Source: a bacterium | GTDB lineage: Bacteria > Bacillota_I > Bacilli_A > RF39 > UBA660 | Length of the DNA: 32,865 nt | Direction: 5' to 3' | Assembly: GCA_030531905.1 (NCBI GenBank) | Contig: JAUNMG010000014.1 | Coordinates: forward strand, 1-32,865 | Shown: piece after piece, positions 3,484-17,094 of the stretch | Numbering within the stretch: position 1 is the first letter of the stretch | Layout of the letters: the number at the start of each line of letters is the position of its first letter | Made by a program: the position numbers and the translations under genes | Notes under the pieces: model-generated | Databases searched by the model: none | What the model was told of the DNA's origin: nothing | The model's input: only the letters and a program-made list of their open reading frames with translations

Positions 3484-4258
3484 TTTTGATGATACTTTAA
3501 TTAATAGTGATGAAGAAATACCAGCTTCTACTGTAGTTGTCCTTGATAGTTTAAGAAGAACTGGGTATAAGTTTGCAATCGCAACAGGAAGACCTTTACA
3601 AACAATCCTTGATTATAATCATGATTTTTTATTTACTGATTATATAATATCTAATAATGGAGCAGTTATCTATGATTGTGTAAAAGAAAAAATAATCTTT
3701 CATAAAAGTATGTTAGTTAGTAATATAAAAAAGATAGTGAAAACTTATTACGATAAAGCAATTATTTATCTAGTAGATAGTTATAACTGGAATTTAATAA
3801 GTGAAAAGTCTGCTTATAATAATGATGCAGATATAGTTAATAGAATAGTTGATTATGAAAAATTTATAGAAGAAGAAAAAAAAGATATTAATAAAATTGA
3901 ATTATATTTTAAAACTTTGAAAGAGGCAGAGATTTCCTTAAAAGAGATTAAGAGTTTGAATTTAAAGGTGAATGTTAATTTACAAATATCAGGTGATAAA
4001 TTTATGTTAGAAATTACTCATCAAGATGTTAGTAAACTGACAGGTGTTAGTTATGTTGCTTCAAAAAATAAAATTGGTTTAGATAGGGTTGTTGCCTTTG
4101 GAGATGGCCATAACGACGTTGAATTAATTAAAAATGTTGGTGTTGGAGTAGCTGTAGGTAATGCTGTTGATGAGTTAAAGAAAGTAGCCAAAGAGCTAAC
4201 TGATGATTGTAATCATAAGGGTGTTGAAAAATTCTTGAAGAAGCAGTTTATGGGATAA
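3461..4258 (+). CDS. HAD-superfamily Cof-type phosphatase
   Basis: The 265-aa cytosolic hydrolase has the HAD nucleophile motif DFDDTLI (Asp8, Asp10), a TGR motif (IATGRPL) and the C-terminal metal-binding GDGHNDVEL. Between them lies the larger cap typical of Cof-type (class IIB) enzymes, which act on sugar phosphates, pyridoxal phosphate or FMN. The substrate is unknown. Translation begins within the end of the PAP2 gene after a GGGGG-type ribosome binding site, so the two form an operon. The stop codon lies inside the terminator hairpin. Confidence 0.9.
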   Translation: MKELIVSDFDDTLINSDEEIPASTVVVLDSLRRTGYKFAIATGRPLQTILDYNHDFLFTDYIISNNGAVIYDCVKEKIIFHKSMLVSNIKKIVKTYYDKAIIYLVDSYNWNLISEKSAYNNDADIVNRIVDYEKFIEEEKKDINKIELYFKTLKEAEISLKEIKSLNLKVNVNLQISGDKFMLEITHQDVSKLTGVSYVASKNKIGLDRVVAFGDGHNDVELIKNVGVGVAVGNAVDELKKVAKELTDDCNHKGVEKFLKKQFMG

Positions 4259-7328: not shown

Positions 7329-9278
7329 ATGGATAGAATAAAATACTATTCTCCAAGCGATTGGTCAGGAGGTTATAATTTGGAAAAAGCAGAACAAGTA
7401 ATACTTAATTTTGATAATGATAAGGAATATGACATTAATGACATTTTAGAATTCTTTAATATATATAAATATTTTGATAATAAAGTATATTTAACAAAAT
7501 GGGATGATGATTATATTCAAAAATTAAAAGATATAGTAAAACAAATGAAAGTAAAGGCATATAAATATTTTAATACCAAAATAAATGAAGATAATATTAT
7601 ATCAGTTTATGAAACAGTGGATATTCATTATAAAAATGAATTCTTTGAATTATTTTCCAATTGTATAGAAGCTATGAATATTTCAAACGAAAAAATGGCA
7701 GAATTACTTCAATGTGAAAAAATACGCATAAGAGATGTATTGGAATATAAAACATTGGTAATAAAGTATGATGACATTATTAAAGAATATTTAATGAATA
7801 ATAATAATGAGTCCGTAGAATTATTAATTGGAAAGTATTATATAGATGAAGAATCATATGACAAATTAAATTTTCCATCAAGTTTAACATTAGCCGACAA
7901 AGAAAAAATGATATTAAAATATATTGAATATGAATTTGCAAATTTAAATTTCATTAGGATAATTGCAAAAATACAAAGTAATAAAGATTCAATAGTCGTA
8001 GATGATAAAACAAAATTAAAGGCCCAAAAAAGAAGAGAAGAAATTGAAAATAATTTATTTAAGAATACTAATACAACTATAGAATTTGGTATAGGAGTTG
8101 TTATAAATGATAATCAAGAAGAGGCGTCATTAATAACATCAAAAGGAAATGACACAAATTATTCGTATTCTGGAAAGTGGATAAAAGAAAGCAATGATTA
8201 TCCTACATTATTGAATAATTTTATATATTTGTTCAACTATGTAGATCCATATTTTAGAATAGATTTAATTAATAAAAAATGCTATTCTGGTATTTTTGAA
8301 CGAATTAATTATAAAGTAGTAAGATCTTATAATCCAAACCAAACATTTAATAATAGGGCGATGGTTGCTAATATGCAGATAGCAGCATATTATAATTATT
8401 TGAATAAAAATAATATAAGGTTAGAAGATATTATTGAATGGTTTTTTAAAGAATATCTAAAAAGTGAATTCGATATTGATAATTATATAATATCGATGCC
8501 TTCTGCCAATTCAAATTATTTTGAAAAATGTAAATCATTATTACCTGAATTTGACCTGATATTAAAAGAGTATAAGTATTATTGTGAGGATGGCATTATT
8601 GATCAAGAATTAGTTAATATTTCATCAACACAAATGTTTTTTAAAGATATTCCTTCTTTGAATGATAAAAAGTATATTTATGCTAATAAGATAGACGATA
8701 CATTATTAATCCAATATTATTTCTTCTCAGATCAATGTTTGCTAAATTATAATCCAATTACGAATAAGTCTTATGGATGCTTTTATGAACTATTAAGAAA
8801 TATTGAAATGAAATATTCAGATTATAATATACATGAACAAAAAATGATTGATTGGCTTGTAGATAAAGAACTATTAGCAGTAGATAATAATTACATAAAG
8901 CTCAAGAATAAACCGTTAATTAATATATATGCCGATTTATATTTTAATGAGGTTATTAATTATTGGAGATATCCTAAACAACTTAGAAATATAGTTGATT
9001 CGTTAATAGAAAATGGAATTTTATATTCAGAAAACACATTATTTTCTAAACCTGAACAAGATTATTTTAATTATTATCTTAATATGTCAGAGTTTATAGA
9101 TGGGTTTGATATTAGAAATTCAAATTTGCATGGTTCACAATCAGGAGATAGAAATTCCGAAATACATTCAAGCAGATATATGATGAAAATAAAAAAAATA
9201 CCGGTGACTAATTATCATCGGTTTTATTATTGTCTAAATTATCTATTACGGCAACCACTTCATCTAAAGTACTTGTAA
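7329..9278 (+). CDS. Large HEPN-like protein, candidate anti-phage factor, altered C-terminus
   Basis: The protein has 649 aa as read and is cytosolic, with a start supported by AAGGAGG. Near the C-terminus the segment GFDIRNSNLHGSQ contains R-x4-H (Arg596, His601), the catalytic pattern of HEPN RNase domains. Large proteins ending in an RN...HG HEPN-like domain (ApeA-like and others) are known abortive-infection factors; that link is inference. The N-terminal two thirds carry no motif that I recognise. The position next to attL is a common cargo site of satellites. Oddly, the frame runs through the bidirectional terminator at 9200-9225 and ends 71 bases inside the convergent integrase gene. 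The last about 25 residues are therefore antisense to the integrase and probably not native. Confidence 0.7.
   Translation: MDRIKYYSPSDWSGGYNLEKAEQVILNFDNDKEYDINDILEFFNIYKYFDNKVYLTKWDDDYIQKLKDIVKQMKVKAYKYFNTKINEDNIISVYETVDIHYKNEFFELFSNCIEAMNISNEKMAELLQCEKIRIRDVLEYKTLVIKYDDIIKEYLMNNNNESVELLIGKYYIDEESYDKLNFPSSLTLADKEKMILKYIEYEFANLNFIRIIAKIQSNKDSIVVDDKTKLKAQKRREEIENNLFKNTNTTIEFGIGVVINDNQEEASLITSKGNDTNYSYSGKWIKESNDYPTLLNNFIYLFNYVDPYFRIDLINKKCYSGIFERINYKVVRSYNPNQTFNNRAMVANMQIAAYYNYLNKNNIRLEDIIEWFFKEYLKSEFDIDNYIISMPSANSNYFEKCKSLLPEFDLILKEYKYYCEDGIIDQELVNISSTQMFFKDIPSLNDKKYIYANKIDDTLLIQYYFFSDQCLLNYNPITNKSYGCFYELLRNIEMKYSDYNIHEQKMIDWLVDKELLAVDNNYIKLKNKPLINIYADLYFNEVINYWRYPKQLRNIVDSLIENGILYSENTLFSKPEQDYFNYYLNMSEFIDGFDIRNSNLHGSQSGDRNSEIHSSRYMMKIKKIPVTNYHRFYYCLNYLLRQPLHLKYL
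9200..9225. terminator. Bidirectional terminator between the HEPN-like gene and the integrase
   Basis: ACCGGTGA and TCATCGGT pair (one G-U) around the loop CTAATTA. T residues follow on the plus strand and a run of eight T on the minus strand. The integrase stop codon (9208-9210) lies in the loop. Confidence 0.8.
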
Positions 9279-10332
9279 ATAGGTGTGAATAAGTTTTTAA
9301 AGTTTCTTCAACTTTTGTATGGCCTAAGTATTTTGCTACAACTTGAACATTAGCGCCTTTATTAACCAGAAGAGATGCACAAGAATGTCTGAAATCATGT
9401 AATCGGATCTGTTTAACATTAGCTAATTTACAGTTAACATTTTTATGATTAGTAAGTGTATTACTACATACAGGAAGCATATCTCCAGCTACAAAGAAAT
9501 TATCATTAAATGCAGGTATCTTTTCTGCCTCTTTTTTCATCATTTTAAGGTCGTTTGTAAGGACTTGTGGCATTTTTAATATTCTTATACTACTTTTAGT
9601 TTTAGGAACCGAGAATCGCCAATTTTTAACGGAACCACAACGATCATTAATTTGCTTAGTTATACTCAAAGTTCTATCTTTAAAATTTATATCTTTCCAT
9701 TGTAGTCCTCTAAGCTCTCCACGTCTTAACCCACAATAATATAATATCTCAAAAATGCCAATCCATTTGATATCAGTTTCAACCGAAAGAAATTGTTTGA
9801 ATTCTTCATAAGTGAAAAATAATTGTTCTTTTGGGAATTCATTAGGATCATTAAAGTTATACATTTTAGGATATACCTTAGCAAAGTTAAATTCGTGCCA
9901 TGCAGTAGCATAATTCAAAATGGTTTTTAATAATTTATAAATGTCATTTTTAGTTCTCGTAGCAAGATGTGTACTATTTATTTCATCATGCCATCTTTCA
10001 AAAGTAGGGTAGTTAAAATCTTTAAGTTTAACTTTATATAATGATTTTAAATAAGGCAATTTGTTGTTATAACCGTATAATGTATTTTCTTTAACTTTAT
10101 CTTTTCTAAAATCAATAAACATCCTAATCATTTCTTCAAAAGTTACATTATTAGTATTTTCATATTCTCTTAGTTTTCATTTGAATTCAAACTCAGCATC
10201 TTCTGCTTCTTTTTTAGTTGCATATCTACCTGATTTCTTAGTTTTATGAGTACCATCAATATCTTCATATTGAGTCTTATAAAACCATATTTTACCATCT
10301 TTCGTAGGCCTATTATCTTTATATACACCCAT
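9208..10332 (-). pseudogene. int: Tyrosine-recombinase integrase interrupted by one TGA codon
   Basis: The full reading frame runs from ATG 10332 (AAAGGA eight bases upstream) for 374 aa. An arm-binding N-terminal domain of the AP2-like type (KIWFYKTQYEDIDGTHKTKK) is followed by a SAM-like core-binding domain. The catalytic domain has every key residue: Arg203 (GLRRGEL), Lys244 (VPKTKSS), His312 and Arg315 (HDFRHS), His338 (LGHTK) and Tyr348 (TYSHLF). Codon 52 is TGA (plus-strand TCA at 10177-10179), just after the arm-binding domain, with the frame intact on both sides. A product starting at Met68 would keep catalysis but lose arm binding. It is either a recent pseudogene or a truncated recombinase; a sequencing error is possible. 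Confidence 0.85.
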
Positions 10333-10339
10333 ATAAAAA

Positions 10340-10357
10340 TTCCTTTCTACAAAGGAA
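10340..10357 (-). promoter_or_regulatory. Hairpin sequestering the integrase ribosome binding site
   Basis: In the integrase mRNA TTCCTTT-GTAG-AAAGGAA forms a perfect 7-bp hairpin whose right arm contains the Shine-Dalgarno AAAGGA. The left arm overlaps by three bases an 11-bp segment (10355-10365) that can pair instead with 10472-10482. Confidence 0.45.
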
Positions 10358-10482
10358 ATACCGTTAAAAACTTGTAATATTATATAAAAATGGTATAATT
10401 AATTTAGGAAATCCCATTACATTGTATTTATATAATGTTTATTTGTTTAAAGTTTCTCAGACTCGAACAAAAACGGTATTTC
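10355..10482. repeat. 11-bp inverted repeat flanking the small-RNA region
   Basis: GAAATACCGTT (10355-10365) and AACGGTATTTC (10472-10482) are exact complements about 106 bp apart. They enclose the small-RNA promoter and its antisense segment. They may be protein sites or a long-range stem in the integrase leader. Confidence 0.6.
10372..10399 (+). promoter_or_regulatory. Promoter of the antisense small RNA
   Basis: TTGTAA, a 16-bp spacer and TATAAT with an upstream TG (extended -10). The predicted start is about 10405-10407. Confidence 0.65.
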
Positions 10483-10517
10483 TGATTGATCTCGTATTCC
10501 AGTACGAGATTTTTTTT
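10405..10517 (+). ncRNA. Antisense small RNA against the replication-operon leader
   Basis: A promoter and a strong terminator bracket about 110 nt without an ORF. Bases 10423-10464 are the reverse complement of 11540-11582, the leader of the 11600 gene, with three substitutions and one 1-nt bulge. Two of the three substitutions still allow G-U pairs. In addition 10407-10415 can pair with 11588-11597, which covers the end of the AAGGAGGAG Shine-Dalgarno and the bases after it. The RNA is therefore predicted to block translation of the 11600 gene and the overlapping rep gene. It is also cis-antisense to the integrase leader on the minus strand. Regulation is inferred; the complementarity is read directly. 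Confidence 0.7.
10489..10517 (+). terminator. Terminator of the antisense small RNA
   Basis: ATCTCGTA-TTCCAG-TACGAGAT is a perfect 8-bp stem followed by T runs (10510-10517). It has no T-tract on the minus strand, so it serves a plus-strand transcript. Its tail touches the stop codon of the convergent repressor gene. Confidence 0.85.
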
Positions 10518-11178
10518 ATATGTTTTTAGAAACCCTTATAGCTTTATGAGGTTGTGTAGCACTTTCTGTGAATTTTTTCTTTGTATAAAATTTAGGCAAG
10601 ATAGATTTTGAATTGTTATTATTAAGTGGTGCAACTAAGTAGCCATCTTTTTTAACATAAATATGAATGAATAACCAAGAATCATATTCTTTTAGTTTTA
10701 CTAAGTAATCTCCATCTTCTTTAATTGATTTATTATTTAGAAATTCAACTAATACAGTATCACCAATATCATATTTAGGTGCCATTAGATCATCTACAAC
10801 ATCAAATATCAAATATCCTGTTTTTGGTGTTAGATATTTAGTAGAAACCCATTCGTAATCAACAGGATGAATAATCCAATCTTCAGAGCCAATGTCTATT
10901 ACAGATATCTTGGCTTTTTTTGATGATTGTTCAGGTTCAAAACCATTGTCATTAATTAATGAATCTCCATCAGTTAATTGTTCAACAGTAGTCTCTAAAT
11001 AATTAGCTAATTTGCCTAATTCAATTTCACTTGGGTAAGTTCTAGCTCTTGTCCAATCACATACCTTTGTATAAGATAATTTAAGATCATCAGCAACATT
11101 CTTTCTTGATATTTTTTTATAGTCTAATAATGCCACAAGATTATTAGCTAAGATTTTTCTCATTTCAATTTTATTCAT
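10516..11178 (-). CDS. Element repressor: XRE HTH with an S24/LexA-like domain lacking the catalytic serine
   Basis: The 220-aa protein has an N-terminal helix-turn-helix (about residues 8-68, RKNVADDLKLSYTKVCDWTRART) and a C-terminal LexA/CI-like beta domain (about 115-200). Peptidase members read G-D-S-M-x-P at the nucleophile; here the stretch is DDLMAP (130-134), with Leu131 where Ser is expected, while Lys161 is at the expected place. Self-cleavage is therefore unlikely, and derepression may need a partner or anti-repressor, as in Stl-type satellite repressors (inference). The start at 11178 fits GGAGG eight bases upstream. It is divergent from the Cro-like gene across a shared operator region. 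Confidence 0.85.
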   Translation of the reverse strand: MNKIEMRKILANNLVALLDYKKISRKNVADDLKLSYTKVCDWTRARTYPSEIELGKLANYLETTVEQLTDGDSLINDNGFEPEQSSKKAKISVIDIGSEDWIIHPVDYEWVSTKYLTPKTGYLIFDVVDDLMAPKYDIGDTVLVEFLNNKSIKEDGDYLVKLKEYDSWLFIHIYVKKDGYLVAPLNNNNSKSILPKFYTKKKFTESATQPHKAIRVSKNI

Positions 11179-11197
11179 GTTTGCTACCTCCAATATC

Positions 11198-11226
11198 ATA
11201 ATAAAATAAAATGATAAATTTGTCAA
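11198..11226 (-). promoter_or_regulatory. Repressor promoter
   Basis: On the minus strand TTGACA, a 17-bp spacer and TATTAT. An ATGATAAA motif (11211-11218) lies in the spacer, so autoregulation is likely. Confidence 0.75.
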
Positions 11227-11261
11227 CATAAAAGTAAAGAAAAAATGATAAAAATGATAAA
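11211..11261. promoter_or_regulatory. Operator repeats ATGATAAA between the divergent regulators
   Basis: ATGATAAA occurs at 11211-11218, 11245-11252 and 11254-11261. A partial inverted copy (TTTATC, 11284-11289) lies in the early promoter. Spacing and position fit binding sites for the repressor, the Cro-like protein, or both. Confidence 0.5.
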
Positions 11262-11267
11262 AAAATA

Positions 11268-11296
11268 TTTACAAACAGAAATGTTTATCCTATAAT
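11268..11296 (+). promoter_or_regulatory. Early promoter of the Cro-like and rep operon
   Basis: TTTACA, a 17-bp spacer and TATAAT. It faces the repressor promoter and drives the Cro-like gene and probably the genes after it. Confidence 0.75.
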
Positions 11297-11324
11297 GGAG
11301 AAGAAGATAGGAGGAGGTGAAAGA

Positions 11325-11540
11325 ATGAAAATAACACTTAAAGCGTTAAGAGTAAATGCTGGATATACAATAGAAAAAGCTAGTGAAGCATTAGGAATAA
11401 GTACAGTTACATTAAGAAGCTATGAAACTAAAAAAACAATTCCAAATATGGAAATGCTAAATAAGATGTTAAAACTATATGATGCTAAATTTAGCAAATT
11501 TGAATATTCAGCAAAAGATAATGCATTAGTATTGAATTAG
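11325..11540 (+). CDS. Cro-like XRE helix-turn-helix protein
   Basis: The 71-aa DNA-binding protein is essentially one HTH domain (GYTIEKASEALGISTVTLRSYETKKTIPN). It occupies the position of Cro or an early activator in phage-type switches, opposite the repressor. ATG 11325 follows AGGAGGAGG; an in-frame ATG at 11295 would overlap the promoter and is rejected. The stop codon TAG marks the start of the segment complementary to the antisense small RNA. Confidence 0.88.
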   Translation: MKITLKALRVNAGYTIEKASEALGISTVTLRSYETKKTIPNMEMLNKMLKLYDAKFSKFEYSAKDNALVLN

Positions 11541-11582
11541 AGTCTGAGAAGCTTTAAAGAAATAAATATTATATAGAATACA
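11540..11582 (+). promoter_or_regulatory. Antisense-RNA target in the leader of the 11600 gene
   Basis: This 43-base segment between the Cro-like stop and the ribosome binding site is the inverted near-copy of 10423-10464. It ends exactly where AAGGAGGAG begins. Confidence 0.7.
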
Positions 11583-11599
11583 AAGGAGGAGATTTTCAA

Positions 11600-11851
11600 A
11601 TGCCAAAAAGACGAAAAATACTAACAAAAGAAGAAATAGAAAAAATAGCAGAATATCAATGGGCTAGTATTAAAGACATTATGGATATTGGTGCCATTGG
11701 AAGAAATAAAGCAAGAGAAGTATTAAATGTAATAAGTGATAAGTTTTATGATGGCAAATCAAAAGTACAAAACGGATTAGTTCCAATGGATATGGTTCTT
11801 GATTATTTTAATATTCCTAATAATAAGCATGGTGAAATAATTAATGGCTAG
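11600..11851 (+). CDS. Small basic DNA-binding-type protein (excisionase-like or replication accessory)
   Basis: The 83-aa protein is not firmly recognised. It has a basic N-terminus (MPKRRKILTKEE) and a winged-helix-like stretch (ASIKDIMDIGAIGRNKAREVLNVIS) of the kind seen in small phage or ICE proteins that bind DNA, including excisionase-like factors. The ribosome binding site AAGGAGGAG is strong but lies next to the antisense target, so expression is probably held down by the small RNA. Its end overlaps the start of rep by 8 bases, so the two are likely coupled and share that control. Confidence 0.7.
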   Translation: MPKRRKILTKEEIEKIAEYQWASIKDIMDIGAIGRNKAREVLNVISDKFYDGKSKVQNGLVPMDMVLDYFNIPNNKHGEIING

Positions 11852-12608
11852 AAGAAGAATGTTCAGTCTTGATATAGTTGATTCAGATCAATTTACTGAA
11901 TTACCAATCACTACAAGACTACTTTACTTTGAATTAGGTTCAAGAGGTGACGATGATGGGTTTATAGCGAATCCTAAAAAAATAGCAAAGTTCGCTGATT
12001 GTTCAGAAGAAGATATTAAAACATTAGTAGATAAAGGTTTTGCATATGTGTTTGATTCCGGCCCATTAGTAATAAGACACTGGCTTGCTAATAATCAATT
12101 GAGAAATGACAGATATCATGAAACGTATTTTAAAAATGAAAAAAGCATGATAGGAGTAAATTTAATAAATAAAACTTATTATTTATACGATGATCCTGGG
12201 TTGCCAGATGGTTTACCATTGGTTGCCCTAGATGAGATAAGAAAAAAGAAGAATAATGAAGAAGAGGAAAAAGAAGAAGAATTTAATTCAGAACAACTAA
12301 AAGAAGAGGAGTATAACAATTTTGATGTTTCTGACATTGATCCTCGAATAATAAATCAATTTGAACTTTTATGGAATAAATATCCTAAAAGAGTTGGAAA
12401 AAAAGAAGCTTTATATTATTATAATCAAGCAATAAAAAATGGAGAATCGTTCGAAATTATAGAACAAGGCTTGGATAACTATATAGATTATTTAAAGAAT
12501 GATAACACTCCTGATATTCATATAAAATATGGTTCTAATTGGTTTAAAAATGAATGTTGGAACGATGAATATGAAGTAAATTACCATAACATTGACTTTC
12601 CATTTTAG
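11844..12608 (+). CDS. Phage-type replisome organiser / replication initiator
   Basis: The 254-aa protein opens with MARRRMFSLDIVDSDQF and continues TTRLLYFELGSRGDDDGFIANPKKI, the winged-helix N-terminal domain of phage replisome organisers. An acidic linker (about residues 135-155, almost all Glu/Lys/Asn) leads to a C-terminal domain with WNKYPKRVGKKEALYYYNQAI and YIKYGSNWFKNECW, typical of DnaD/DnaB-like helicase-recruiting regions. It would bind the origin and load the host helicase. A hairpin terminator follows, and then an iteron array that is the probable binding site. Translation is coupled to the 11600 gene. Confidence 0.88.
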   Translation: MARRRMFSLDIVDSDQFTELPITTRLLYFELGSRGDDDGFIANPKKIAKFADCSEEDIKTLVDKGFAYVFDSGPLVIRHWLANNQLRNDRYHETYFKNEKSMIGVNLINKTYYLYDDPGLPDGLPLVALDEIRKKKNNEEEEKEEEFNSEQLKEEEYNNFDVSDIDPRIINQFELLWNKYPKRVGKKEALYYYNQAIKNGESFEIIEQGLDNYIDYLKNDNTPDIHIKYGSNWFKNECWNDEYEVNYHNIDFPF

Positions 12609-13216: not shown

Positions 13217-13258
13217 AATTATTATTATAAGAAACTTATTTTGTGGTGGAGTGGTAGT

Positions 13259-14047
13259 ATGTATAATGAAATATTAGATATATATAGGGATAGAATAGAT
13301 GACTTTTTTAAGAATGTACCTACATTTGAAAACCAGTTAACTTATGATGATTTTAATGATGAATGTTTCGATAAGATGTACAAAGAAAACAATATAGAAG
13401 ATCCTAAAAAAGTTAAGGAATTAAAAGAAGAGATTCCACAATTAAAGGATATGTGTAAAAAATGCGGTGCATATTTTATGAATCCAAGAAATAAAAGTCA
13501 TGTTAAGTATGATGTCATAATGGGCCAATTTTTTGAAAATATTTTAATAGATTATTTTACTGATCATTTAAAGATTAAAGCAACTCATGGCGATAAAAGT
13601 AATAAGAAATATCCTGATTGTATGATTTTGGGAAAAGATAAAGGAATATTGGCTTATTTTGAAGTTAAGTATCATTGTGCTCCTTTTATTTCTGCAATTC
13701 AAAAGATTAATAGATATTGCTATGAGGGTAGTGCTACACTTGACAAAGCAAAAATTGAAAGACAACTTGAAATTATTGAATCTGATATCGAGAGACCTGT
13801 TTTTTATATTCATTGGATAGATTATCCATGTGTAAAAGGGATATTCTTTGAAACAAGTGAACAGGTTAAAGAAACGCTTATAAATGAGAAAGTATTTGAA
13901 AGGCAGGAGAGAGAAGGAGATTTAGAAAAAAATCCTCAATCTGTATATAAAGAAAAAATATATTCTAAATTTTTAGAAATGGGATCATTAGAAGAATTAG
14001 TTTCTATTATAAAGGATATGCAAAAGAATGGCGTTAATATGAATTAG
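13259..14047 (+). CDS. PD-(D/E)XK nuclease-like protein, candidate restriction endonuclease
   Basis: The 262-aa protein shows the restriction-type core: Glu93 in MGQFFENIL, then KKYPD (Asp120), a short hairpin, and YFEVKYH (Glu135, Lys137). That is the PD-x14-E-x-K arrangement of PD-(D/E)XK nucleases. A Cys-x2-Cys pair (CKKCGAYF, about 66-69) may help bind a metal. No methyltransferase or helicase domain is attached. ATG 13259 follows GGTGGAG; a longer reading from 13241 lacks a ribosome binding site. It is the first gene of a two-gene operon with the TGT/DpdA-like gene (11-base gap). It may cut DNA that lacks, or carries, the base made by its partner. It could also work with the two methyltransferases. 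Confidence 0.75.
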   Translation: MYNEILDIYRDRIDDFFKNVPTFENQLTYDDFNDECFDKMYKENNIEDPKKVKELKEEIPQLKDMCKKCGAYFMNPRNKSHVKYDVIMGQFFENILIDYFTDHLKIKATHGDKSNKKYPDCMILGKDKGILAYFEVKYHCAPFISAIQKINRYCYEGSATLDKAKIERQLEIIESDIERPVFYIHWIDYPCVKGIFFETSEQVKETLINEKVFERQEREGDLEKNPQSVYKEKIYSKFLEMGSLEELVSIIKDMQKNGVNMN

Positions 14048-14058
14048 GAGTGATAAAA

Positions 14059-15432
14059 ATGAATTATGATGTTCACGGAAAAAAATTACCAATTCCATCT
14101 TTTTTTCAAGTGTATAATTATGGCGGAGGAAATGGAGATAAGGATAGGGAAATAGTTTATGCTGAACTAACAGGAGATACACCAGCATTAATAAATTACT
14201 ATTATATAAATAATAATATTCCACATTCTTTTCAAAGTCACGCATTTGATGATCTATCCGGTTATAGTAAAATTGGTGATGTGTATAATGATATTAGAAA
14301 AATGTTAATAAAAAAAGGTGAGATATATAACGGGTATAAGCCTAAAAAATACGATTTTAATTCTAAAGTATTTTTACTTGATTCAGGTGCGTTTAACATT
14401 GTTAAATATGTAGCAAAAAAAGTAAACTACAAATTTGACAAATTTATTGATGAATTAATTATTCAAATGAAAGAATATTATAACTTTGCTAATAATTTAA
14501 AGATTGATATTGTTGTATCTTTTGATTTAGGTGGAAAATATACTGAAAAAGACGGTGAAGGTTCCGATGTTGAACTAAAGAAATTCTTTAATTCTATGAA
14601 TGCTGATGAAGTTAATAATATATTGTTAGAGGAAACAATAAAATATTTAAAAGAAAATCCGGATTATTATCCAAATGTGTTGGCAACTATTCATGGTGAT
14701 TTGCAAGAAGATTATAAAAAATGTACTGAGTTCGTTTTGTCTTTGGAAAAAAAGCATAGTTACAAATTTTGGGGATTTGCATTAGGTGGTATCGCAAGTT
14801 ATAAGAAACTCGATAAAAGTTGGTATAAGGATATAGATTTTAATGAAACAGGAAAAAAAGATTATATATCTACAGTTGGTCCTGCTAGGGCTTCAAAAAT
14901 TGTACGTGAATTAATAGCAGATAACAGACCTATTCATGCATTAGGCTGTGGAGGCTATCCTAATATTGCAACTAATTATTTTAGTGGTGCCACTTCTTTT
15001 GATGCTGCTTCTCCTGTTAGAAGAGTGGGAGATGGTAATGCCAAATCTACTAAATATGTTTTTTCTACTACTTCTCCAGCAGATGCAAAGTTTAGTAAAT
15101 ATTTTGTAGGTGGAATAAATTCAAACAATACACTTAGAAAAGAACCATGTCAATATATTGATATAAATCTTGTTGATGATAAAATGGATTTGTGTGGTTG
15201 TGATGTTTGTGAAGAAGCCAATAGTGTTAATAGGATAAAAAAATTATATTCAATTAAGGATACTGATAGTGAGGCAAACTATTTTAGTAGACAATTAATG
15301 GGACTTCATGCAGTTAGACAACATAGAAAACTTTGCGAAGTAATATCTAATTATTCTTCAATTCAAGATTTTTGCAAAGATTATCCAAATGATTTGAATT
15401 TAGGGTTAGTTATTATTTTTGAACAATTATAA
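14059..15432 (+). CDS. TGT/DpdA-like 7-deazaguanine transglycosylase
   Basis: The 457-aa protein keeps the landmarks of the tRNA-guanine transglycosylase fold. FLLDSGAF (Asp108) matches the DSGGFQ acid/base motif. GFALGGIASYK (240-249) matches the GGLAVGE-type substrate loop. SFDAASPVRR (Asp315) matches the nucleophile motif FDCVLPTR. Cys379, Cys381 and Cys384 with a downstream His (417 or 422) match the CxCxxC...H zinc site. Family members exchange guanine for a 7-deazaguanine base in tRNA (TGT) or DNA (DpdA, TgtA5-type phage enzymes). Its place in a mobile element, right after a nuclease gene, favours DNA as the target; this is inference. No preQ0 synthesis genes (queC/D/E) are in the window, so the base would come from host queuosine metabolism. 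Start ATG 14059 has AGGAG eight bases upstream. Confidence 0.82.
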   Translation: MNYDVHGKKLPIPSFFQVYNYGGGNGDKDREIVYAELTGDTPALINYYYINNNIPHSFQSHAFDDLSGYSKIGDVYNDIRKMLIKKGEIYNGYKPKKYDFNSKVFLLDSGAFNIVKYVAKKVNYKFDKFIDELIIQMKEYYNFANNLKIDIVVSFDLGGKYTEKDGEGSDVELKKFFNSMNADEVNNILLEETIKYLKENPDYYPNVLATIHGDLQEDYKKCTEFVLSLEKKHSYKFWGFALGGIASYKKLDKSWYKDIDFNETGKKDYISTVGPARASKIVRELIADNRPIHALGCGGYPNIATNYFSGATSFDAASPVRRVGDGNAKSTKYVFSTTSPADAKFSKYFVGGINSNNTLRKEPCQYIDINLVDDKMDLCGCDVCEEANSVNRIKKLYSIKDTDSEANYFSRQLMGLHAVRQHRKLCEVISNYSSIQDFCKDYPNDLNLGLVIIFEQL

Positions 15433-15454
15433 AAAGGCAGTGTTTCTGCCTTTT
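15432..15454. terminator. Bidirectional terminator between the transglycosylase and methyltransferase genes
   Basis: AAAAGGCAG-TGTTT-CTGCCTTTT is a perfect 9-bp stem with A and T tracts at its ends, serving both convergent operons. Confidence 0.88.
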
Positions 15455-16307
15455 ATTTGTCTATTTTTAGATTTGATATAGCATTTAAAAATGCTTGCTT
15501 TTTTTTCTCATCACTTTTATATTCGTCAAATACAGATGCAGGAATATTTCCTTCAGTAGCTAGTCTTCTTTCACATTCATTTTTGTATTTAGTATCTAAT
15601 TCAAAGCCTATTGCTTTTCTATTTAGAATCTTTGCAGCTACCAGCGAAGTTCCACTTCCAGCAAAAGGATCTAATATTGTATCTCCAATATTGCTACTCA
15701 TTTTTAATATTCTAACAATCATAGGTAGTGGATAAATTGTAGGATGAGTAAGATCTAATTTTTTCTTAGTCATATTATTTACTCTGTCAAAGTACCATAT
15801 GTCAGTTGGGTTTCTACCAATACCACCAACTAATCTTTTATCATTTTTGGTAATATATGGTATTCGTATTTCGTCTAAATTAAAAATATAATTATTTAAA
15901 TCTTTTACGCCCCAAACAATATTTTCATATCGACCGGATAATCTATTCGTACAGTTTTGCATATTATTAAAAGTCCAAGTTATTATATTTCTAATTTTGA
16001 AATTATTTTCTTTCATAATATCATATCCTATGTAAGGTAAAGGTAGAATCTCTTTATCATTTCCTAATGGTATAGGAGATAAATTTAAGAAGAAACTTCC
16101 GTTTGGTTTTAATATTCTATAGATTTCTTTGGTAACATCATTAATCAATTCTTTCCATTCTTCTAATGATATTTTATCACTATATTTACCATACTTTTTT
16201 CCAATATTATATGGAGGAGAAGTAACTACTAATGTGACTGAATTGTCAGGAATAGTTTTTAATAATTCCCTACAATCACCGAACTCAATTCTAATATTCT
16301 CGTTCAT
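15453..16307 (-). CDS. Site-specific DNA methyltransferase, beta class (N4-C or N6-A), second of a pair
   Basis: The 284-aa enzyme has motif IV TSPPYN near the N-terminus (30-33) and the AdoMet-binding motif I DPFAGSGTS near the C-terminus (about 213-221). This is the permuted beta-class order. SPPY fits N4-cytosine or some N6-adenine enzymes and does not decide between them. About 55 residues follow motif I, giving a helical tail rich in Lys and Glu. AAGGAGAG precedes the ATG, which lies inside the 3' end of the other methyltransferase (17-base overlap). Two methyltransferases in tandem often serve the two strands of an asymmetric site; the sequences are paralogous but clearly different. Confidence 0.9.
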   Translation of the reverse strand: MNENIRIEFGDCRELLKTIPDNSVTLVVTSPPYNIGKKYGKYSDKISLEEWKELINDVTKEIYRILKPNGSFFLNLSPIPLGNDKEILPLPYIGYDIMKENNFKIRNIITWTFNNMQNCTNRLSGRYENIVWGVKDLNNYIFNLDEIRIPYITKNDKRLVGGIGRNPTDIWYFDRVNNMTKKKLDLTHPTIYPLPMIVRILKMSSNIGDTILDPFAGSGTSLVAAKILNRKAIGFELDTKYKNECERRLATEGNIPASVFDEYKSDEKKKQAFLNAISNLKIDK

Positions 16308-17094
16308 CTAATAACTCTCCTTTCTGTATTTTTTTTAATCTGTTTTCTGATATTTCAATGTATTCTGGTACAATTTCATATCCTATATAATTTCTGTTTA
16401 ATTTTTTTGCCACAGCAGCAGTTGTTCCTGAACCCATAAATGGATCTAGAACAATATCATTTTGTATGGTCGAACAGCCTATTATTCGTTCAATTAACCT
16501 TTCTGGATATTGCGCTGGATGTTCAGTTCTTTCTTCAAAATTGCCAGATACCATAGATATTTTCCATACATCGCTGGGATTTTTTAATTGGCTCTTATAC
16601 CTGTCTGGTCTGTAGTTTAAAGCCGGTATTTTAACTGCATCTAAATTAAATTTATAGTTTTCTTTGTTTTTTGTAAACCAAAAAACATATTCATATCTAG
16701 GAGCAAATCTTTTATTAGTAGAACCGCCCCAATCAAAATTCCATATTATAATATTTTTTAAATACATGTCCTCAAAATAGTCTTGAATCCAAAATGGAGG
16801 AATAATTATTCCGTTATTATATCTATTTTTAATGTTTATAAAAATTGAACCATCTTTTTTTAATACGCGTTTGCATTCTGAGAAAACATTTTTTAACATT
16901 TTACGGTATTCCTCTTCTTCTAAGTTGTCTTTGTATTTAATTCCCTTACTTGCTGTAATTTTACCTTTGTTAGTTTTATTACCATAATTAATGTTAATAT
17001 TATATGGAGGAGATGTGACAATCATATTAACGGATTCATCATTGATTTCTTTCATAGATTCACTTGATTTTTGGTATATAATATTTGTCTTCAT
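16291..17094 (-). CDS. Site-specific DNA methyltransferase, beta class, first of a pair
   Basis: This 267-aa paralogue of the downstream enzyme has TSPPYN at 28-32 and DPFMGSGTT at about 217. The region between (WNFDWGGSTNKRFAPRYEYVFWF) is the target-recognition part and differs from its partner, so each probably methylates a different sequence or strand. It has a strong promoter and the ribosome binding site AAAGGAGG. It is divergent from the Nudix-HNH operon. The cognate nuclease could be the PD-(D/E)XK protein (13259-14047) or the HNH protein (17646-18815), or the pair may protect the element from the host. Confidence 0.9.
   Translation of the reverse strand: MKTNIIYQKSSESMKEINDESVNMIVTSPPYNININYGNKTNKGKITASKGIKYKDNLEEEEYRKMLKNVFSECKRVLKKDGSIFINIKNRYNNGIIIPPFWIQDYFEDMYLKNIIIWNFDWGGSTNKRFAPRYEYVFWFTKNKENYKFNLDAVKIPALNYRPDRYKSQLKNPSDVWKISMVSGNFEERTEHPAQYPERLIERIIGCSTIQNDIVLDPFMGSGTTAAVAKKLNRNYIGYEIVPEYIEISENRLKKIQKGELLDEREY

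Follow-up and report, generated by a model that had tools for sequence, protein, structure and literature searches.

Genetic organization of the locus

The stretch of DNA analysed here (the window, 32,865 nucleotides) is one contig (C40) of a host genome of 1.36 Mb that is 92% complete (G000) and belongs to an uncultured gut-type bacterium. Around the small RNA under study the genes follow the order integrase, RNA, CI-like repressor, cro-like gene, P83 (encoding a protein of 83 amino acids) and DnaD-like helicase loader, the RNA gene filling the gap between integrase and repressor. The features considered below are these:

9208-10332, minus strand: tyrosine integrase (Phage_integrase, E 4.6e-23), interrupted by an in-frame TGA at 10179-10177
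10372-10399, plus strand: promoter of the small RNA, TTGTAA-16 nt-TATAAT, with a TG extension at 10391-10392 (-15/-14)
10406-10517, plus strand: antisense small RNA of about 112 nt, made up of closing stem, hairpin A, recognition hairpin B and terminator (fold, covariance model match and scaffold covariation)
10407-10415, plus strand: predicted 5' anti-Shine-Dalgarno segment, which is also the 5' arm of the closing stem (partner 10475-10483; from the fold)
10421-10426, minus strand: putative -10 of an integrase promoter, TACAAT, inside hairpin A, conserved in most loci and with a weak -35
10449-10464, plus strand: recognition core with the variable loop UUCUCAG, complementary to the cognate leader; relatives carry a varying loop at the same position
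10488-10517, plus strand: intrinsic terminator with a 10-pair stem (stem region 10488-10511) followed by a U tract
10516-11178, minus strand: CI-like repressor (PHROG 4 transcriptional repressor, E 1.5e-14), ending at the RNA terminator
11325-11540, plus strand: Cro-like helix-turn-helix gene (HTH_3, E 3e-11), upstream in the target operon
11537-11599, plus strand: target leader between the cro-like gene and P83, with the Shine-Dalgarno sequence AGGAGG at 11584-11589; complementary to 10407-10467
11600-11851, plus strand: P83, predicted first regulated gene, probably encoding an excisionase-like helix-turn-helix protein
11844-12608, plus strand: DnaD-like helicase loader/replication gene (PHROG 8489, E 1.8e-44)

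The extended -10 promoter and the U-tract terminator that a preliminary description had placed around the RNA were both found as claimed. The layout of this promoter (TTGTGT or TTGTAA, 16-17 nt, TGnTATAAT) precedes most of the related RNAs described below, and the terminator is the sole terminator-like site of the region, its helix being 96% paired, with covariation, over 35 sequences. A search of the window against Rfam at the gathering threshold returned no RNA family at the RNA gene, and nothing relevant was retrieved from six related loci with E values up to 1.

The DnaD-like gene overlaps P83 by 8 nt, from which translational coupling of the two genes is likely. The 83-aa protein has no match in Pfam, PHROG or NCBIfam, and Foldseek returned nothing informative for its AlphaFold model (pLDDT 76). 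Genes at the equivalent place in relatives do match Xis-like families: a homologue of the phrog_6058 type is annotated as putative Xis in the Butyrivibrio phage Idris, and in a second element of the host genome (L156, on contig C5) the targeted gene has a weak match to the ICEBs1 excisionase (E 0.006). In the loci examined for it, a gene for DnaD or a replisome organizer comes next. Therefore, the first target is read as probably a small excisionase-like protein, and the operon as one for excision and replication.

Complementarity between the RNA and the operon leader

The first ~65 nt of the RNA pair with the leader at 11537-11600, Shine-Dalgarno sequence included; the two arms of the complementarity, one in an intergenic gap and the other in a leader, lie 1.1 kb apart. 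Bases 10423-10464 are indeed the reverse complement of 11540-11582, as previously proposed, with three substitutions (two G-U and one G.G) and one bulge. The second block of pairing that had been assigned to 10407-10415 continues across the Shine-Dalgarno sequence and the bases beyond, thereby covering nearly the whole leader, and RNAduplex predicts -63 kcal/mol for the complete duplex. This complementarity is far above chance: the local alignment score was 67, compared with a maximum of 36 among 40 dinucleotide-shuffled controls, and a scan of the host genome with the RNA found the other half of the element as the only other match.

Compensated divergence in related elements

Homologues of the DnaD-like and P83 proteins occur in further genera of the host family, those of P83 defining 22 loci from Bacilli/Bacillota-type metagenome-assembled genomes. 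In all 22 the gap order integrase, RNA, repressor, cro, leader is the same despite the divergence of both RNA and leader, and in all 22 the 200 nt preceding P83 match the integrase-repressor region in reverse complement. The cognate matches score at least 34.6 bits (median 50.0), against a maximum of 31.9 (median 24.2) for non-cognate targets and of 39.2 (median 24.7) for the direct orientation. The nature of the changes is evident from the loop/target pairs themselves, UUCUCAG/CUGAGAA in the window being replaced by UUCUCGG/CCGAGAA, UUACCAG/CUGGUAA and UUCGUAG/CUACGAA in relatives L088, L071 and L074, respectively. The covariation of the two segments that the preliminary description had named as a check is thus present in the related elements.

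When 26 non-redundant loci were compared, the cognate duplexes averaged -47.4 kcal/mol and the non-cognate ones -22.2. The cognate target was the best one in 24 of these loci and none of 20000 permutations performed as well, a result that is inflated because some of the targets were located by complementarity; the P83-defined comparison, whose targets were not located in that way, is the cleaner test. This match of each RNA to its own target across diverged relatives shows, as far as comparative sequence evidence goes, that the predicted pairing between RNA and leader is real and under selection. The 5' end of the RNA co-varies with the ribosome binding site, more weakly than the core does with its target, the cognate combination exceeding the non-cognate mean in 20 of 25 loci (p=0.0002).

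A family of RNAs with a common scaffold

The related RNAs are about 90-115 nt long and share a scaffold of four parts: closing stem, variable hairpin, recognition hairpin (short stem, loop of about 7 nt) and terminator. The closing stem is formed by the 5' anti-Shine-Dalgarno segment and a Shine-Dalgarno-like one towards the 3' side. An alignment of 35 sequences has 90.1% of its cells paired, with two-sided changes in 20 of 25 pairs, counts which lean towards structure as they come from a model-fitted alignment; sliding the partner lowered pairing to 53% or less and no slid control came close. More than a dozen different loops were found on this one scaffold. A YUNR motif, common in the loops of antisense RNAs (PMC4485353), is readable in the loops checked by eye, but the U-rich loops make this weak evidence.

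Of 386 genomes from the family, 35 gave a match to a first covariance model, spread over 29 of 150 sampled genera. In a class-wide sample there was a single match in another family, where the RNA has a perfect 19-nt target at a start codon. Among the 17 testable loci newly found with the model (two further ones are cut by contig ends), 12 have a downstream target at start codons with 28.3-59 bits, controls reaching at most 28.3, and the remaining five, mostly the weakest, lack a convincing target. The RNA is also present on seven IMG/VR viral contigs, every one with a cognate target. Scanning IMG/VR with the DnaD and 83-aa proteins as single sequences gave no match. When named phages and plasmids were searched directly, neither the DNA nor the 83-aa protein found a match. 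Cultured phages with a homologue of the phrog_6058 (Xis) type, namely Butyrivibrio Arawn and Idris and Fusobacterium JD-Fnp2, showed neither a covariance model match nor an antisense pair, so that no cultured phage carrier was found.

Each target is situated around the start codon of whichever gene or genes come first behind cro, and the families of these genes vary: P83, phrog_6058, phrog_989-like proteins or small membrane-type proteins, the latter directly preceding P83 in L108.

Two loci deserve separate mention. The second element of the host genome, L156, carries its RNA on the minus strand at 4003-4085, with a different recognition loop (core TGTCAGGGAC) and the same layout of integrase, RNA, ImmA-like protease, repressor, cro-like and Xis-like genes. 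In JD-Fnp2 (L224, 1405-1570) the integrase-repressor gap contains a pair of promoter-like and terminator-like sites conserved in other Fusobacterium phages; this pair, which has no evident antisense target, possibly marks an analogous small RNA.

Proposed mode of action and alternative explanations

Gene layout, complementarity, compensated divergence and scaffold covariation, all established on genome sequences, are in keeping with a model which we consider very probable: through loop-specific recognition, a constitutive, trans-encoded antisense RNA would keep the excision/replication operon from being translated while the element is integrated. The RNA would be made from the strong σA-type promoter between integrase and repressor and, given the lack of a visible operator at this promoter, is probably expressed constitutively in the lysogen. 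The recognition hairpin, through its variable loop of about 7 nt, would pair first with the early-operon leader in a putative kissing-loop contact; pairing would then spread and free the 5' end of the RNA to cover the Shine-Dalgarno sequence of the first gene after cro. Translation of the excisionase-like gene would be blocked and, by coupling, presumably also that of the DnaD replication gene, thus keeping leaky early transcripts from triggering excision and replication. The preliminary description had envisaged an antisense RNA acting in trans on rep in the control of copy number or lysogeny. A trans effect on the leader of a replication operon and on its ribosome binding site agrees with the compensating divergence of the relatives, with the amendment that the first cistron is probably excisionase-like and the DnaD-type loader comes behind it; therefore, we favour control of excision and replication, that is, of lysogeny, over plasmid-style copy-number control of a Rep protein.

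The main mechanistic rival holds that the RNA prematurely terminates transcription of the cro-P83-DnaD operon, like the CI RNA of P4, instead of blocking ribosome binding. The target does sit between cro and the first silenced gene, and several relatives have a small hairpin just 5' of the core (e.g. TACGAAAAAATCGTA). However, the window has no terminator with a U tract between core and start codon, in most loci little distance separates the core from the start codon, and pairing regularly reaches the Shine-Dalgarno sequence, with covariation of the 5' end and the ribosome binding site, all of which make attenuation an improbable account. A DNA-level role instead of RNA pairing, whether in recombination, in inverting the repressor segment or as a site bound by a protein, could be imagined from the two near-identical inverted copies flanking the repressor-cro segment. 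We rejected it as extremely unlikely: it is only complementarity, including G-U pairs, and not sequence that is kept between loci, promoter, terminator and RNA scaffold are conserved, and the repressor segment has the same orientation in the loci inspected.

That the RNA acts chiefly in cis on the integrase, through antisense pairing or through interference between promoters, is unlikely. A minus-strand TATAAT or TACAAT is found at RNA nucleotides ~15-20 in most loci, facing the RNA promoter and forming a dyad with its -10 (10394-10426 in the window), and the symmetry of this dyad is higher in cognate than in shuffled pairs (16.5 vs 13.8, 0 of 20000 permutations). The predicted integrase mRNA would start opposite RNA nucleotides ~3-8, which suggests two head-on promoters with a transcript overlap of ~10 nt, and interference between them is possible. 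Nonetheless, an overlap restricted to about the first 10 nt speaks against the action in cis on the integrase leader that had been put forward earlier, the minus-strand -35 is poor, and control of the integrase would leave the covariation with the distant leader unexplained.

The recognition loop could have an additional function, compatible with the proposed silencing of the early operon, as the determinant of immunity: the resident RNA would silence related elements that arrive with the same loop, and loop types would diversify in the manner of plasmid incompatibility groups. The variety of loops on one scaffold and the different loops of co-resident systems, both in the host genome (C40 and C5) and in G178, render such specificity plausible. 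On the other side, G345 harbours two resident elements with similar loops and a predicted cross-pairing of -52 kcal/mol in one direction, and loop divergence could equally reflect drift and compensation. We thus propose only tentatively a large, trans-encoded prophage RNA family in which a rapidly diversifying loop on a fixed scaffold would set the silencing type of each element and exclude others of the same type; if true, it would be an RNA counterpart of repressor immunity groups.

Relationship to known antisense RNAs

The closest systems by function are C4 of P1/P7, RNAII of pMV158 and the CI RNA of P4, the window RNA being a member of none by the features tested. The larger transcript that gives rise to C4 also holds the C4 target. 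C4, which RNase P processes from that transcript, resembles the RNA described here as a phage immunity/lysogeny RNA with a conserved scaffold and variable loops (PMC5320573), and in a bipartite pairing that occludes the Shine-Dalgarno sequence, here computed only, through recognition core and 5' anti-Shine-Dalgarno segment. In contrast to C4, the window RNA comes with a promoter and a terminator of its own, lies in the integrase-repressor gap 1.1 kb from its target, with the oppositely oriented repressor gene in between, and matches no Rfam covariance model. With RNAII it shares a hairpin with a 5' tail, a leader placed between the gene of a small DNA-binding repressor and a replication gene, and a translational block, here predicted from pairing over the ribosome binding site; RNAII is, however, a true counter-transcript of 48 nt to the copG-repB leader of a plasmid (PMC4485353), whereas our RNA (10406-10517) is encoded apart from its target (11537-11599), is partly complementary to it and belongs to an integrated element. 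The P4 CI RNA is likewise a small antisense RNA that keeps replication genes off in the lysogen, but it derives from the leader transcript by processing and works through premature transcription termination (PMC4825925). The window RNA is encoded separately, and no terminator was found between core and start codon in its target. The prophage antisense RNAs STnc6030 of BTP1 (PMC7067206) and OOP of lambda (PMC5869508) also affect superinfection or the lysis-lysogeny decision, although STnc6030 is cis-encoded antisense to the tailspike gene and OOP to cII, neither having the place or the target of the window RNA.

In the mostly open-access literature searched, no description of this RNA family was found. 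What appears to be new is a family of prophage antisense RNAs, encoded in trans and without an Rfam entry, whose loops have diversified on a constant scaffold. Antisense control of lysogeny has so far been known from a few model phages; here an RNA family is tied to one place of the lysogeny module, in elements from 29 of the 150 genera sampled in a single uncultured family of Bacilli. As the target can be read from sequence, the rule of a constant scaffold with co-varying loop and leader is testable, and the loci provide a ready natural set of partly orthogonal RNA repressor pairs. The RNA is also a route to the early operon in prophages whose proteins match no known family.

Further features of the element

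Integrase, repressor, Cro-like and DnaD genes in the window, together with a terminase large subunit in the relative L021 and the seven IMG/VR viral contigs, point to a temperate phage or phage-like integrated element as the probable carrier; no virion genes were identified in the window and no convincing pair of attachment-site repeats was found for the element. The in-frame stop of the window integrase is not present in the 94%-identical relative L086, so that the gene is probably broken here, in which case this copy may be unable to move, or contains an assembly error.

Behind the replication gene, positions 13241-17094 carry an unassigned 268-aa gene, a TGT-like protein (queuine transglycosylase family) and two genes resembling DNA methyltransferases; this cargo may be a module for DNA modification or restriction. 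An inverted repeat, GAAATACCGTT/AACGGTATTTC (10357-10367 and 10473-10484), flanks the RNA promoter and lies also inside the 3' arm of the RNA, and it is retained with small changes in the closest relatives, L066-L069, L086 and L088.
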